30,334 nt of DNA from a virus. Where the stretch lies: positions 1 through 30,334 of the IMG/VR virus record IMGVR_UViG_3300042519_000223. The stretch is one strand, 5' to 3'. Position 1 is the stretch's first letter. The number at the start of each line of letters is the position of its first letter. Below the pieces are notes generated by a model that was not told the origin of the DNA, did not search any database, and saw only the letters and a list, made by a program, of their open reading frames with translations. Positions 16,059-30,334 of the stretch are shown here, piece after piece. Position numbers and translations under genes: made by a program.

Positions 16059-17312
16059 TTAATAACCGGATATCCAGTCGAGTGGTTCTAAATCTTCTTG
16101 ATCATCATCAGCAAAGTAACTTGTTACAGCCAACTGATCAATATAACTTAAAGCATCTAGTAAGTCGTCATGAACACCAGTAGTAGGGAACATAACAAAC
16201 TCGTCCCTAAAATGATCCCAGTCTTCTTCTTCGTTTAGAATAACTTTACCGTGTTCAAAGCGTCCTTGCAAAGCCCAGATAACACGTTCAGTTTTCTTCT
16301 TGTTTCCGTGCGTCAAGTCTTCAATATGAGCATACACATTGTTAGACCTCATCAGATCGCTTAAATAGGGCAACACTGCGTTTTTAAGTGATCCTCGTTC
16401 TATACCTACACCAGCAGGTTGAAACGCTTTAATGTTCTTTATAATGCGTTGGCAAGTCTCTTTGATATCCCAACGTCCATGTTCGATTTTCCGAACAAAC
16501 CATTTACCATCTTCTGTGGCTTTAACAACTGCAATAGCTGTCTGGTCAAGTCTTTTCTTAGCCTGAGCATTCATCGATAAGTTCTCGAATCCTGCTAAGT
16601 CGATAGCGATGTAGTAGTTACCATCGTTAGGTTCTTCACCGAACTTCAACCATTCTTCTTTGAAGGTGTCAGTACCAGCATTATCAAAGCTTGCTTCGTA
16701 TTCTTGTTTAAATGCAAATGAACTTAGAGTCTTCTTTGCATTGTCAATCTCTTTTGGATCGATGAGTGGATTGTCTTTGGTAGTAAAGTGCCAAGACTTC
16801 CATTCTTCATCGTCACCTGATTCACCTAGGTTATACATATCGTAGAACCAGTTACGTCCTTTAGGTGTACCAATAAATAAAGCTTTACCCTTCTTGTCCG
16901 ACAGAGCAGCTCTTAGAACCTTTTCCCAAGTATCTGCTTTAATGTCAGCTACTTCGTCCAATACTAGATACGTTAAAGAAACACCACGTAGCGTATCCGG
17001 ACGGTCAGAACCACGAACATAGATCTTAGCTCCATTGATCAGAGTAATATCCATATTGTTAACGTGGCTAGATGAGATCACCTCTCTTCCGAGTTCCATC
17101 AAGAGATCCCAAATAATCTGTCGGGCTTGCCCTTGAGTGGGTGCTACGTACATTACTGCACTACCTTGTGGACAGCGTAGACCTTCTACGAGTAGAGATA
17201 CTGCAGAGAGTCTTGACTTTCCACAACGTCGTCCAGCTACAATTACTTTGAAGCGAGTGTCGTCACCGTACACCTGCTTCTGCCAAGGGAGTAGTTCAAA
17301 GTTAAGATTCAT
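16059..17312 (-). CDS. terminase large subunit (packaging ATPase-nuclease)
   Basis: 417 aa. ATPase: Walker A AGRRCGKSR (26-34), Walker B YLVLDE (115-120), coupling segment FIGTPKGRNWFY (146-157). Nuclease: RNase H-like acidic residues at D238 (YYIAIDLAGFEN), E305 (GVGIERGS) and D382/D383 (HDDLLDALSYI). The large terminase pumps DNA into the head and cuts the concatemer. It is shorter than T7 gp19 (586 aa) but has both complete domains. The ATG (GAGGAC upstream) overlaps the small-terminase gene by 11 bases. Placing terminase at the front of the late operon differs from T7, where it is last. Confidence 0.93.
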   Translation of the reverse strand: MNLNFELLPWQKQVYGDDTRFKVIVAGRRCGKSRLSAVSLLVEGLRCPQGSAVMYVAPTQGQARQIIWDLLMELGREVISSSHVNNMDITLINGAKIYVRGSDRPDTLRGVSLTYLVLDEVADIKADTWEKVLRAALSDKKGKALFIGTPKGRNWFYDMYNLGESGDDEEWKSWHFTTKDNPLIDPKEIDNAKKTLSSFAFKQEYEASFDNAGTDTFKEEWLKFGEEPNDGNYYIAIDLAGFENLSMNAQAKKRLDQTAIAVVKATEDGKWFVRKIEHGRWDIKETCQRIIKNIKAFQPAGVGIERGSLKNAVLPYLSDLMRSNNVYAHIEDLTHGNKKKTERVIWALQGRFEHGKVILNEEEDWDHFRDEFVMFPTTGVHDDLLDALSYIDQLAVTSYFADDDQEDLEPLDWISGY

Positions 17313-17733
17313 TATAGTCTACGTCCTCGTAGTCATTATCTATAACTTCTGCTGCTTCTACCTTAGCTTCACCAATACCTGTGATGTTAATCGTGACTGC
17401 ATTCCTTTGACCTTTAGCATCCTTCTCAAACAGGGATGTAGGTAAGACACGATCCATACACATCTTCAATGCTGCCATCTGTCCTGCATGATTGTCGTCC
17501 ATAGCAATAGACACAATCTTATTAATAACCTTGTTACCTGTAGTACTCAAGAGTCTAGCTTTCATCTCTTGAATTCTAGCAGCGTCTCCTGCTGGTCTAC
17601 CAACTTTACCTCTATTGCCCATCTTCTTAGATTCGACAAGTGCCTTCGGTGGTCTTCCTCTCCGAGGCTTTGTTGGTTCTAAGACAGGATCTTTGATGTT
17701 GATAGACACTGTATTGTTATTGTCTTCTTTCAA
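17302..17733 (-). CDS. putative terminase small subunit with AT-hook-like motifs
   Basis: 143 aa, starting at a TTG (17733) with AAAGGA six bases upstream; there is no in-frame ATG near. Two basic motifs, RRGRPPK (24-30) and KVGRPAG (43-49), resemble AT-hooks that bind the minor groove of AT-rich DNA. The middle, TTGNKVINKIVSIAMDDNHA and GQMAALKMCMDRVLPTSLF, is helical; the end is acidic. This architecture and the position before large terminase fit a small terminase that recognises packaging DNA. The AT-rich repeats in its own leader are possible targets. The assignment rests on context and motifs. Confidence 0.72.
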   Translation of the reverse strand: MKEDNNNTVSINIKDPVLEPTKPRRGRPPKALVESKKMGNRGKVGRPAGDAARIQEMKARLLSTTGNKVINKIVSIAMDDNHAGQMAALKMCMDRVLPTSLFEKDAKGQRNAVTINITGIGEAKVEAAEVIDNDYEDVDYNES

Positions 17734-17775
17734 TCTTTTTCCTTTAAGGAGATCTACTTTAATGTTACTACTAAA

Positions 17776-17817
17776 GTTACTTTAAAGTTTACTTTGATGT
17801 TGCTTTAAAGTTAACTT
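17776..17817. repeat. two 19-bp near-repeats in the terminase leader
   Basis: GTTACTTTAAAGTTTACTT (17776-17794) and GTTGCTTTAAAGTTAACTT (17799-17817) match at 17 of 19 bases with a 23-bp period. Each centres on a palindromic CTTTAAAG. A third partial copy (GTTACTACTAAAGTTAC) precedes them. They lie between the late promoter and the small-terminase start, so they are transcribed leader DNA. Confidence 0.8.
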
Positions 17818-17878
17818 ATATAGTTATATTATTAATATAGTTATTACTTACTAAGTTACTTCTATGCTCTATAGTAGT

Positions 17879-17907
17879 ATTATATCATACTTTTATTGAT
17901 TTGTCAA
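17879..17907 (-). promoter_or_regulatory. late promoter, full-consensus sigma70 (terminase/portal)
   Basis: Minus-strand TTGACA (17902-17907), 17-bp spacer ending AAAAGTATGA, TATAAT (17879-17884), with TG one base before the -10. Both hexamers are perfect consensus. The predicted leader to the TTG start of small terminase is about 140 bases and holds the CTTTAAAG repeats. Confidence 0.88.
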
Positions 17908-17995
17908 GTACTTTGTGAACTTTATTTTCATAGTGTTTCTTAAAGTATACACTTAGTAAGAATTGTATAGTATACGATACATAGATAGGTACATT

Positions 17996-18023
17996 ATGTG
18001 TACACGTTCATAGTGATGTGTAC
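17996..18023. repeat. paired ATGTGTAC boxes, 20-bp spacing
   Basis: ATGTGTAC occurs at 17996-18003 and 18016-18023. The first is part of the palindrome GTGTACAC (17998-18005). The surrounding 100 bases are rich in GTAC and GTATAC, suggesting protein-binding sites rather than code. Confidence 0.5.
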
Positions 18024-18099
18024 GAAATGTTCGAATAAACGTACATATGTCCTTACTATGCGGAGGAGTTCTTGGGTATAGGGAAGCTGAGTTAGAGAC

Positions 18100-18115
18100 G
18101 TTAGTGACTACTAAC
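18100..18115. repeat. short perfect inverted repeat
   Basis: GTTAGT GACT ACTAAC: a 6-bp stem with 4-base loop. No T-run follows on either side, so it is not an intrinsic terminator. Confidence 0.5.
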
Positions 18116-18135
18116 ATAGTAGATGTACTCTAATG

Positions 18136-18173
18136 TAGCCTACGGTGCACATCTTAGCCTCTGGTGAACATAG
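18136..18173. repeat. two 19-bp tandem near-repeats
   Basis: TAGCCTACGGTGCACATCT (18136-18154) and TAGCCTCTGGTGAACATAG (18155-18173) are directly adjacent and match at 14 of 19 bases. Confidence 0.6.
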
Positions 18174-18177
18174 TCCT

Positions 18178-18203
18178 TTAGAGGTCATTAGAGCCTCTTA
18201 GAG
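18178..18203. repeat. three TTAGAG boxes at exact 10-bp spacing
   Basis: TTAGAG starts at 18178, 18188 and 18198, one helical turn apart, so the boxes face the same side of the DNA. A fourth TTAGAG occurs at 18092. The pattern fits a binding array for an oligomeric protein. Confidence 0.65.
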
Positions 18204-18345
18204 CAATTATCAATATAAAGTAATACCTAGGATAGGGTGGACTCATAAAACTCAATAGAGAGCGTTTAAAGAGGTTTCCTTGGTTTTCCTTTTTGGGTGC
18301 TTATGAGGGATCATTAATATATACTACCACGTGCACCCCCTCCCC

Positions 18346-18382
18346 CGATAACTTTATAGTCATTGTCGATAACTTTATAGTC
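18346..18382. repeat. 16-bp perfect direct repeat, 21-bp period
   Basis: CGATAACTTTATAGTC occurs at 18346-18361 and again at 18367-18382 with no mismatch; the 21-bp period is two helical turns. Confidence 0.88.
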
Positions 18383-18390
18383 TTATATAA

Positions 18391-18446
18391 GACATAAGAT
18401 ATAACACATAAGACATATGACATAAGATGTAAGACATGAGAGTCTA
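18391..18446. repeat. four 14-bp tandem units (ACATAAGA iterons)
   Basis: Units are GACATAAGATATAA, CACATAAGACATAT, GACATAAGATGTAA and a decayed GACATGAGAGTCTA. The spacing is exactly 14 bp, with ACATAAGA constant in the first three. The array begins 8 bases after the 16-bp direct repeats and is followed by an AT-rich stretch. Confidence 0.8.
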
Positions 18447-18518
18447 TGATGCACCCTATAACGTATCCTATCGAGTAACCTGCAACACTTAAAGTCTTAA
18501 TAGTTTATCTAATAACAT

Positions 18519-18532
18519 TATATAATTATATA
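18519..18532. repeat. AT-only 14-bp palindrome in an AT-rich segment
   Basis: TATATAATTATATA is a perfect palindrome. The surrounding 18485-18560 is almost entirely A and T and could melt easily, as at replication origins. Confidence 0.55.
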
Positions 18533-18650
18533 TACTATAACGTATTGATATCATTGTATAAATAACCCTACACTGTACTCAAGTATTCATGCCATTAATC
18601 AACGATAGAATTAAACTATCAAGCTCATGAGTATCATTAATAAATACAAT

Positions 18651-18678
18651 TAGACTTATTTAAAAACATGCCTATAAT
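18651..18678 (+). promoter_or_regulatory. probable rightward early promoter
   Basis: TAGACT (18651-18656), 16-bp spacer, perfect -10 TATAAT (18673-18678). The expected leader of about 25 bases contains the AAAGGG ribosome site of the first rightward gene. The -35 matches consensus at 4 of 6. Confidence 0.55.
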
Positions 18679-18710
18679 TCATTACATCAACAACAAGAAA
18701 GGGTTACAAA

Positions 18711-25552: not shown

Positions 25553-27202
25553 ATGAAGATTATACTTGATATTGAAACCAATAGCACACACGATATTATA
25601 TGGTGTGTAGTTACTAGAGATATAGAAACTAACGAGGTTAAGGTATGGAAGGAAGCAAGTGGGTTACAAAAGTATTTGGATCAATGCGATTTGATTATAA
25701 TGCACAACGGCATAAGCTTCGATGCACCAGTACTCCGGAAGAACTGGAAAGTTTCGATGAAGCTGAGCCAAGTGTACGATACGCTCGTAGCAAGTCGCCT
25801 CCTAAGTCCAAGCCTAGAGGGCGGTCATAGTCTAGATGCATGGGGTCAACGCCTTGGTTACGCTAAGTTTGAGTTCAGTGACTGGGATGGTGGGTGTACA
25901 GCACAGATGGTAACGTACTGTATCCAAGATACATTAGTAACACAAAAGCTGTATGAATATTTAGTAACAGAATTTAACAACCAAGGATTTGACAAAAGGA
26001 GTATTGATCTTGAACACAAAGTACAAGCAATCATCTGCAAGCAAGAACAAAACGGATTCAAGTTGGATCAGCAAGGTGCTATCATACTTATCTCAGAGCT
26101 TAAGAGTAAGCTTAGCAATATTGAAGATGAATTACAGAGTGTATTTCCAACGAAAACAACTGAAAGATATTCAGAGAAAACAGGAAAGAAACTCAAAGAT
26201 GATGTCGAAGTATTCAACCCCGGAAGCAGACAGCAAATCGCCAGTCGCCTCCAAGAAAAAGGTTGGAAGCCAAAAAGATTTACCGACAAAGGACAAGCAA
26301 TCGTCGACGAAACAACGCTCAACGAAAGCACGATCCCCGAAGCAAAGTTAATCGGTGAATACTTGTTGTTACAAAAGAGAATCAGTCAGATAGATTCTTG
26401 GTTAAAGGTAGTAAGTAGTGACGGTAGAGTACATGGTCGTATCATTACCAACGGTGCAGTGACAGGTCGTATGACTCACATGAGTCCGAACATGGCACAA
26501 GTACCTAACTCAGGTAGTGAATACGGTGAAGAGTGCAGGGCTTTATGGACAGTAGAGAAAGGATATAAGTTAGTAGGTATCGATGCTTCAGGACTGGAGT
26601 TAAGAATGCTTGCTCACTATATGAAAGACGATGCGTATACAAATGAAGTCGTATCAGGCGACATCCACACAGCTAACCAAAAAGCAGCGGGGTTGGAAAC
26701 GAGGAATCAGGCTAAGACGTTTATATATGCATTCCTCTATGGTGCAGGAAGTGCCAAGATCGGGACGATTGTTGGTGGTAACTCGCAGACAGGACAGCGA
26801 CTCATCAATAATTTTCTTAAGAACACGCCTAAGCTACGAGAGCTTCGTGAAAAAGTGGTTCGGTTATTTTCTGAGAAAGGAACGCTACCGAGTCTTGATG
26901 GACGTAGGTTACAAGTTAGGTCGGAACATTCCGCACTCAACACACTCCTTCAAGGTGCAGGTGCAGTTGTCATGAAGCAAGCGTTAGTGTTGTTAGATAA
27001 GAAACTTAAGTCAGCAAAGATTGATTACAAGTTCGTAGCTAACGTGCATGATGAATGGCAGATAGAAGTAGAAGAAAGCAGGGCAGAAGAAGCAGGTAAG
27101 ATGGGTGTTCAAGCAATAGCTGAGGCAGGATTAGTTCTCAACATGCGATGCCCTCTTACCGGTGAGTACAACGTAGGTAATAACTGGAAGGAAACACATT
27201 GA
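25553..27202 (+). CDS. DNA polymerase, family A (T7 gp5-like) with 3'-5' exonuclease
   Basis: 549 aa. Exonuclease: D6/E8 in ILDIET, D57 in HNGISFD, Y122/D126 in YCIQD. Polymerase: motif A VGIDASGLELR (D344), motif B RNQAKTFIYAFLYG (R384-G397), motif C NVHDEWQ (H499, D500). All catalytic residues are present, so the enzyme should replicate and proofread. It is 155 aa shorter than T7 gp5; the gap between exonuclease motif III and motif A is about 218 residues, against about 301 in T7, leaving no room for the thioredoxin-binding loop. No ribosome site precedes the only possible ATG, and a promoter-like element sits right before it. Confidence 0.94.
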   Translation: MKIILDIETNSTHDIIWCVVTRDIETNEVKVWKEASGLQKYLDQCDLIIMHNGISFDAPVLRKNWKVSMKLSQVYDTLVASRLLSPSLEGGHSLDAWGQRLGYAKFEFSDWDGGCTAQMVTYCIQDTLVTQKLYEYLVTEFNNQGFDKRSIDLEHKVQAIICKQEQNGFKLDQQGAIILISELKSKLSNIEDELQSVFPTKTTERYSEKTGKKLKDDVEVFNPGSRQQIASRLQEKGWKPKRFTDKGQAIVDETTLNESTIPEAKLIGEYLLLQKRISQIDSWLKVVSSDGRVHGRIITNGAVTGRMTHMSPNMAQVPNSGSEYGEECRALWTVEKGYKLVGIDASGLELRMLAHYMKDDAYTNEVVSGDIHTANQKAAGLETRNQAKTFIYAFLYGAGSAKIGTIVGGNSQTGQRLINNFLKNTPKLRELREKVVRLFSEKGTLPSLDGRRLQVRSEHSALNTLLQGAGAVVMKQALVLLDKKLKSAKIDYKFVANVHDEWQIEVEESRAEEAGKMGVQAIAEAGLVLNMRCPLTGEYNVGNNWKETH

Positions 27203-29475: not shown

Positions 29476-29636
29476 AAGATGAATATGAATTAAACTTCAG
29501 AGACAGTGAACGTACAGTTCGACATACATTTACTGTCAATGATTCAGATCCGCACTGGGAAGTACATCGACAGTTTATTACTTTCTTAAGTGCAGTATAC
29601 GGTTATGACTTACATGGAGAATACTCACAAGAATGA
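29472..29636 (+). CDS. small hypothetical protein (54 aa)
   Basis: 54 aa from ATG 29472 (ATGA overlap). MKDEYELNFRDSERTVRHTF and TVNDSDPHWEVHRQFITFLS. Not recognised. Confidence 0.6.
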   Translation: MKDEYELNFRDSERTVRHTFTVNDSDPHWEVHRQFITFLSAVYGYDLHGEYSQE

Positions 29637-30334
29637 AGATACTTTTACTTGACATTGAATCCAGTCCAAACGTAGCACACGTGTGGGGAATCTGGCAGCA
29701 GAACGTAGGTATCAATCAGCTGATGGAGTCTTCTTATGTATTATGTTGGGCAGCAAAGTGGCTAGGCGACGACGAGGTTATGTTTGATTCTGTTCACATC
29801 TCTAAACCAAAGAAGATGTTGAAACGAATTCATGACTTGATCTCTGAAGCTGATGCAGTAGTTCATTATAACGGTACTAAGTTTGATATGCCTACGTTAA
29901 ACAAGGAGTTCTTATTGCAAGACATGAATCCTCCCGCTCCTTACAAGCAGATTGATTTGTTAAGGCAAGTACGTAGTCAGTTCAGATTCCCTAGTAACAA
30001 GCTAGATTATGTAGCACAACGACTAGGTTTAGGTAGCAAGACTGCTCACGAAGGGCATGAGCTATGGGTTAAATGTATGAATAAGGATAAAGATGCTTGG
30101 TTTAGAATGGAAGAATACAATAAGCAAGACGTTATCTTGCTTGAGAAGTTATATGTTAGGTTGTTACCTTGGATTAAAAACCACCCTAATCATAATCATC
30201 AAGCAGATGGTGCTGTGTGTCCGAGCTGTGGTGGTACTCACTTACAGAAGCGTGGTATTTCTGTTACAACTACCTCTACTTATCAGAGATATCAATGCAG
30301 AACGTGTGGCTCATGGAGTCAGGGAACGAAGCAA
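29633..30334 (+). CDS. DnaQ/RNase H-like 3'-5' exonuclease with zinc ribbon, cut by right edge
   Basis: 234 codons visible, the frame is open at the right edge. Exonuclease residues: D7/E9 in LLLDIESSP, a second acid in VVHYNGTKFDMPTL (about residue 86), and YNKQDVILLEKLY (third motif). Near residues 195-225 a zinc ribbon, CPSCGG and CRTCGSW. This architecture is frequent in phages next to replication genes, usually annotated as an exonuclease of unclear role. It is separate from the proofreading domain of the polymerase, so the phage carries two such domains. The C-terminus is outside the window. Confidence 0.84.
   Translation, partial: MKILLLDIESSPNVAHVWGIWQQNVGINQLMESSYVLCWAAKWLGDDEVMFDSVHISKPKKMLKRIHDLISEADAVVHYNGTKFDMPTLNKEFLLQDMNPPAPYKQIDLLRQVRSQFRFPSNKLDYVAQRLGLGSKTAHEGHELWVKCMNKDKDAWFRMEEYNKQDVILLEKLYVRLLPWIKNHPNHNHQADGAVCPSCGGTHLQKRGISVTTTSTYQRYQCRTCGSWSQGTKQ

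Follow-up and report, generated by a model that had tools for sequence, protein, structure and literature searches.

An uncultured, podovirus-like phage has a single large non-coding control region, between its late and early genes, that appears to combine an array of host-regulator sites with an invariant phage element beside it, an arrangement that would tune early expression or replication (we put the probability of this reading at about 0.5). The window analysed is the whole IMG/VR record IMGVR_UViG_3300042519_000223 (30,334 nt), which is taken as a fragment of the phage genome because near-complete relatives measure 35-40 kb. Late genes run leftward and comprise a putative small terminase, the terminase large subunit (TerL; 16059..17312, minus strand; PHROG terminase large subunit, E 4e-49), followed by portal, major head, and tail genes. 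From 18711 onward, the early genes point rightward and encode a primase-helicase, a DNA polymerase in pieces, an exonuclease, and a RusA-like resolvase; the DNA polymerase and its exonuclease part are separate genes (25553-27202 and 29633-30334). The ORF just upstream of TerL (17302..17733, minus strand; 143 aa) had no PHROG or Pfam match above the cut-off, and we infer that it is the small terminase gene from its position and its conservation in relatives. The two gene sets are separated by ~1 kb in which no gene is likely (17734-18710), and this is where the repeats lie. A perfect sigma-70 promoter (TTGACA-17-TATAAT, 17879..17907, minus strand; 12/12 match) leads into the late operon and lies in a block that the alignment finds retained in relatives, and a weak promoter-like site, a 10/12 match that is near chance taken alone, points rightward toward the early genes (18497..18526, plus strand). 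An Rfam search found no family and a tRNA gene search found none, while a search with PF00940 (phage RNA polymerase) had no match and its positive control likewise matched nowhere.

A sequence-only reading had inventoried the repeats of this region, all of which are present, but it passed over the most conserved feature, the C-tract CCCCCTCCCCC (GGGGGAGGGGG on the TerL strand), which occurs once in the window (18336..18346). A TerL protein search yielded 80 loci, the closest of which were aligned to the window; enrichment was counted in 68 clusters chosen by TerL similarity alone, as counts from motif-chosen loci would be circular. The C-tract is found in 66/68 of these clusters, compared with 0.65 in shuffles, and almost all set A relatives have it approximately 800-1000 bp upstream of TerL. 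The left half of the core, CTTTTTGGGTGCTTATGAGGG (18289..18309), stands ~46 bp before the C-tract and is visible as T columns in the alignment: when 40 clusters are aligned without gaps on the tract, the T-run at -47 to -44 reaches 1.05-1.45 bits per column. The C-tract, with its T-run, is the constant landmark of this phage family and would point to a nearly universal element of a large uncultured phage clade. A hairpin adjoining the C-tract was rejected, its stems being no longer than in shuffles.

To the right of the C-tract, the 16-bp perfect repeat CGATAACTTTATAGTC starts at 18346 and 18367 (18346..18382; 21-bp period), a repetition matched in 0/1000 shuffles and only partly kept in relatives. 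It runs into the SdhR-type operator GTCTTATATAAGACATAAGA (18380..18399), an exact 20-bp match to a published site. That site, bound by the GntR/HutC-type regulator SdhR, is TCTTATGTCTTATATAAGACATAAGA (PMC4494728), and GTCTTATATAAGACATAAGA corresponds exactly to positions 7-26 of this 26-mer. The whole 26-mer fits the window with four mismatches, all in the left outer half, the next best place having seven, and GTCTTATATAAGACATAAGA is the sole window match at up to three mismatches (chance 0.01). This one match lies in the control region and none elsewhere in the window, and in a related contig (G002) the only SdhR core lies 58 bp from the C-tract. The palindrome GTCTTATATAAGAC (18380-18393) adjoins a run of 7-bp half-sites, ATAAGAC/T (18387..18441; TRF period 7, 7.9 copies). 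The four 14-bp units described earlier do form a repeat array at 18385-18441 (TRF period 14 x 4.1 or period 7 x 7.9; 0/1000 shuffles), but they are better read as this repeated half-site. The idea of arrays bound by proteins gains from the match of the right-hand part to an SdhR operator, but binding by phage proteins is unsupported there, no phage GntR having been found. A BLAST search of the array against named phages gave no match, perhaps through low-complexity masking, and in the literature searched the half-site and palindrome strings occurred only in one paper, on bacterial regulators.

Among the matches listed, 79 of the 80 bacterial genomes carrying the 19-mer are Betaproteobacteria, and the bacterial sites inspected adjoin mdh or aceA. 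In one of them (L213), the 19-mer has a GntR+UTRA regulator on one side and malate dehydrogenase on the other; in four others (L220, L245, L264, and L276), it stands beside isocitrate-lyase-like (aceA-like) genes, named by eye from the sequence. A PF00392 (GntR) search had no match in 18 phage records, including this 30.3-kb fragment, and its positive control matched in 12/14 genomes. Since no GntR gene was detected in these 18 records, a host protein is the likely reader of the SdhR-type sites. The phage probably infects Betaproteobacteria. The site would offer a sequence handle for host prediction, since it is almost confined to this class. The phage arrays hold a mean of 1.77 SdhR cores (up to 5) versus 1.07 at host sites, and their position also differs: host sites lie close upstream of a -35 box, whereas the array in the window has only the weak promoter, 56 bp beyond it.

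The slot right of the C-tract differs among relatives, which have either SdhR sites or Fur boxes in it, the latter often with DnaA boxes. The array core occurs in 108 stretches of viral contigs, most of them in the divergent region and from the same extended clade (TerL 53-100% identical) as the window. Among the 68 TerL-selected clusters, the SdhR core was found in 13 (0.10 in shuffles), and Fur boxes in 12 (0.25 in shuffles); 9 clusters had DnaA boxes, 32 sites altogether (1.3 clusters in shuffles). Only 2/24 clusters of set A have the SdhR core; SdhR-positive phages served as seeds for sets B and C, which biases the SdhR rates of these sets upward and leaves their Fur and DnaA rates free of this bias. 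SdhR (7 clusters) and Fur (10 clusters) never occur together in set B (hypergeometric 0.0099), a p of ~0.01 that comes from a single set with shared ancestry, in which clusters are not independent. SdhR or DnaA sites mostly begin 14-22 bp right of the C-tract, and early-direction promoters are enriched on this side (13/33 vs 5 in shuffles). The slot contents thus seem exchangeable among relatives. L004 keeps the right-hand AT-rich repeats and L009 part of them; L007, L008, and L010 lack them, and these last three close relatives have no SdhR site at the syntenic place. Comparison with related phages, which had been proposed as a check on the repeats, has a divided outcome: the C-tract is retained, but the TTAGAG triple (described below) and the SdhR array are lacking at the syntenic place in close relatives, an outcome named beforehand as counting against the repeats.

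Several relatives carry further combinations of regulator sites. In set B, L359, L366, L348, L340, and L372 have dense arrays of DnaA and Fur boxes right of the C-tract, and in several of these set B arrays pairs of boxes are 29 bp apart. LexA-type sites (CTGTN8ACAG) were seen near the control region of L166, L104, L109, and L201. SdhR-type sites adjoin DnaA boxes in L106, L117, L125, and L128, viral contigs without a similar TerL that fall outside the clade, and in the divergent region of a distant complete phage genome (L083, MW202796; 18270-18370), SdhR-like arrays stand next to GGGGGTGGGGAGGGG.

On the reading that we favour, the invariant core (T-run, ~46 bp, C-tract) would mark a site needed by nearly all relatives, most likely for DNA packaging, and an exchangeable slot for host-regulator sites would adjoin it on the early-gene side, filled in the present phage by the SdhR operator and its additional half-sites. 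On binding there, host SdhR, which regulates central-metabolism genes, would turn early transcription or replication up or down according to the cell's metabolic state. The sequences show the operator match, no GntR protein detected in the phages, a tract that stays constant, and regulator sites that differ between relatives within the slot; we infer who the host is, that SdhR binds, in which sense it would regulate, and that the core serves packaging. SdhR activating, repressing, or merely being titrated would each fit the sequence, and the phage may be either sensing or sequestering regulators that belong to its host. More tentatively, a widespread clade might keep, next to an invariant element for packaging or origin function, a plug-in slot into which arrays for SdhR (central metabolism), Fur (iron), and DnaA (replication) are swapped, with each lineage coupling its early programme to a different aspect of host physiology. 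If true, host-regulator control of phage genes would extend from CtrA to regulators of metabolism and iron.

The closest precedent is provided by the alphaproteobacterial phages whose intergenic regions are rich in CtrA sites, linked to 'lytic deferment' (PMC9437464). Like the present phage, they have a large intergenic region with focused sites for a host master regulator; the present phage differs in host class, in the proposed regulator (SdhR, with Fur or DnaA in relatives), and in the placement of the sites beside an invariant C-tract. The betaproteobacterial SdhR operators (PMC4494728) share with the phage a palindrome with outer half-sites. In the phage, however, the 26-bp site is degenerate on one flank and continues on the other as the half-site run, and the array is not close to a strong -35 box.

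The location of the C-tract before the terminase genes leads to the inference of a packaging role and suggests the tract as a candidate cos or pac site. It is quite possible, if somewhat less probable than our preferred reading, that the terminase cuts in or near CCCCCTCCCCC and binds elements between CCCCCTCCCCC and the small terminase gene, and both this and the operator reading could hold together. The tract precedes TerS/TerL at an almost constant distance from the T-run, as one copy per genome and in 66/68 clusters, and two contigs (L013 and L401) end inside it. The region resembles a lambda-type cos region in its non-coding location ahead of terS/terL and in a GC-rich segment that would be the putative cut site. 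In many set A clusters an IHF-type site also stands ~138 bp from the C-tract, a layout that recalls lambda cosB, but the window and its closest relatives are without an IHF site at -138. Furthermore, overlaps of 123-127 bp circularise several contigs at other places, and contig ends bunch 110-139 bp beyond the tract, where an assembly branch fits as well as a real end. For a direct terminal repeat, another role suggested earlier, the signs are equally ambiguous, since these end overlaps of relatives have lengths that assembly word sizes would give and the window record is a fragment. One contig (G028) that looked cut at the C-tract was rejected as a case of a terminus, its two ends differing in the array, which points to strain variation. 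A very different role for the same tract, that it gives a G-rich transcript which stalls and primes replication, is highly improbable. Conserved sequence block II of human mitochondrial DNA acts in this way and has the G-A-G tract pattern also seen in the C-tract, whose G-rich strand would correspond to a leftward transcript. Right of the tract, however, leftward promoters are not enriched (3 clusters vs 4.1 in shuffles), and on this ground such mitochondria-like priming was rejected.

For the slot, the main competitor is a replication origin in which the repeats would serve as iterons or for unwinding and the relatives' DnaA boxes as initiator sites, a reading that we regard as possible but doubtful. 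Three to five DnaA boxes cluster beside the C-tract in several set B and C relatives, and an AT-rich stretch follows the array in the window. Most clusters lack DnaA boxes, however, the DnaA-like matches of the window are at chance level and form no DnaA box cluster, and the repeats match a transcription-factor site exactly. The GC-skew switch sought as a further sign of an origin does lie inside the window, but it coincides with the switch in gene direction and is confounded with it, and is therefore no evidence for an origin. A packaging core and an origin in the slot may coexist, so the confidences attached to these readings do not sum to one. It is unlikely, although less so than primer formation, that the sites act as a sponge: replicating phage DNA would titrate SdhR, or in relatives Fur or DnaA, with no phage promoter under control, so that host metabolism or iron uptake is derepressed or host replication is stopped. 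Consistent with this are the higher copy number per phage array than at host sites and the dense mixed arrays of several relatives, which no clear promoter overlaps, and decoy sites function in engineered E. coli (PMC7826281). On the other hand, just one core is present in half of the phage arrays, and one site per genome would be a weak sponge unless copy number is high.

The four repeat families claimed at 18136-18446 are all in place and exceed dinucleotide shuffles (n = 1000), and they are not one single array. Left of the C-tract, two copies of a 19-bp tandem repeat (18137-18155 and 18156-18174; 14/19 identical) are equalled in ~1/1000 shuffles of 18136-18300. Three TTAGAG boxes follow at exact 10-bp steps (18178, 18188, and 18198; 18178..18203), and 0/1000 shuffles gave any 6-mer three times with equal spacing. 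The helical phasing of these boxes had been taken as a sign of a protein-bound array, but the close relatives L004, L007, L008, and L010 do not keep the exact triple, which leaves a function of the phasing unsupported. Both repeats are part of conserved non-coding sequence (18094-18275 in the alignment) that is shared among close relatives only.

The distribution of the neighbouring elements is patchier. The 22-bp block GGGTATAGGGAAGCTGAGTTAG (18072..18093) has 0-2 mismatches in L003, L004, L025, L034, L065, and L075 and four in L009, and is absent from the close relatives L007, L008, and L010; being common to distant relatives and missing in close ones, it suggests mosaic exchange. The inverted repeat GTTAGTGACTACTAAC (18104..18119) is of the type GTTAGTN4ACTAAC, which, with one mismatch allowed, occurs in 24/68 TerL-selected clusters vs 0.4 in shuffles. 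As a host operator it was rejected, with 0 exact matches in 12 betaproteobacterial genomes, and it is perhaps a phage-specific site. Repeats of this type are common in the control region of relatives (e.g. L442, L446, L483, and L494). Finally, the conserved 20-mer CTCAATAGAGAGCGTTTAAA (18251..18270) is identical in L008, L009, and L010, and recurs in the distant L483 with one mismatch, inverted, at +345 from the C-tract.
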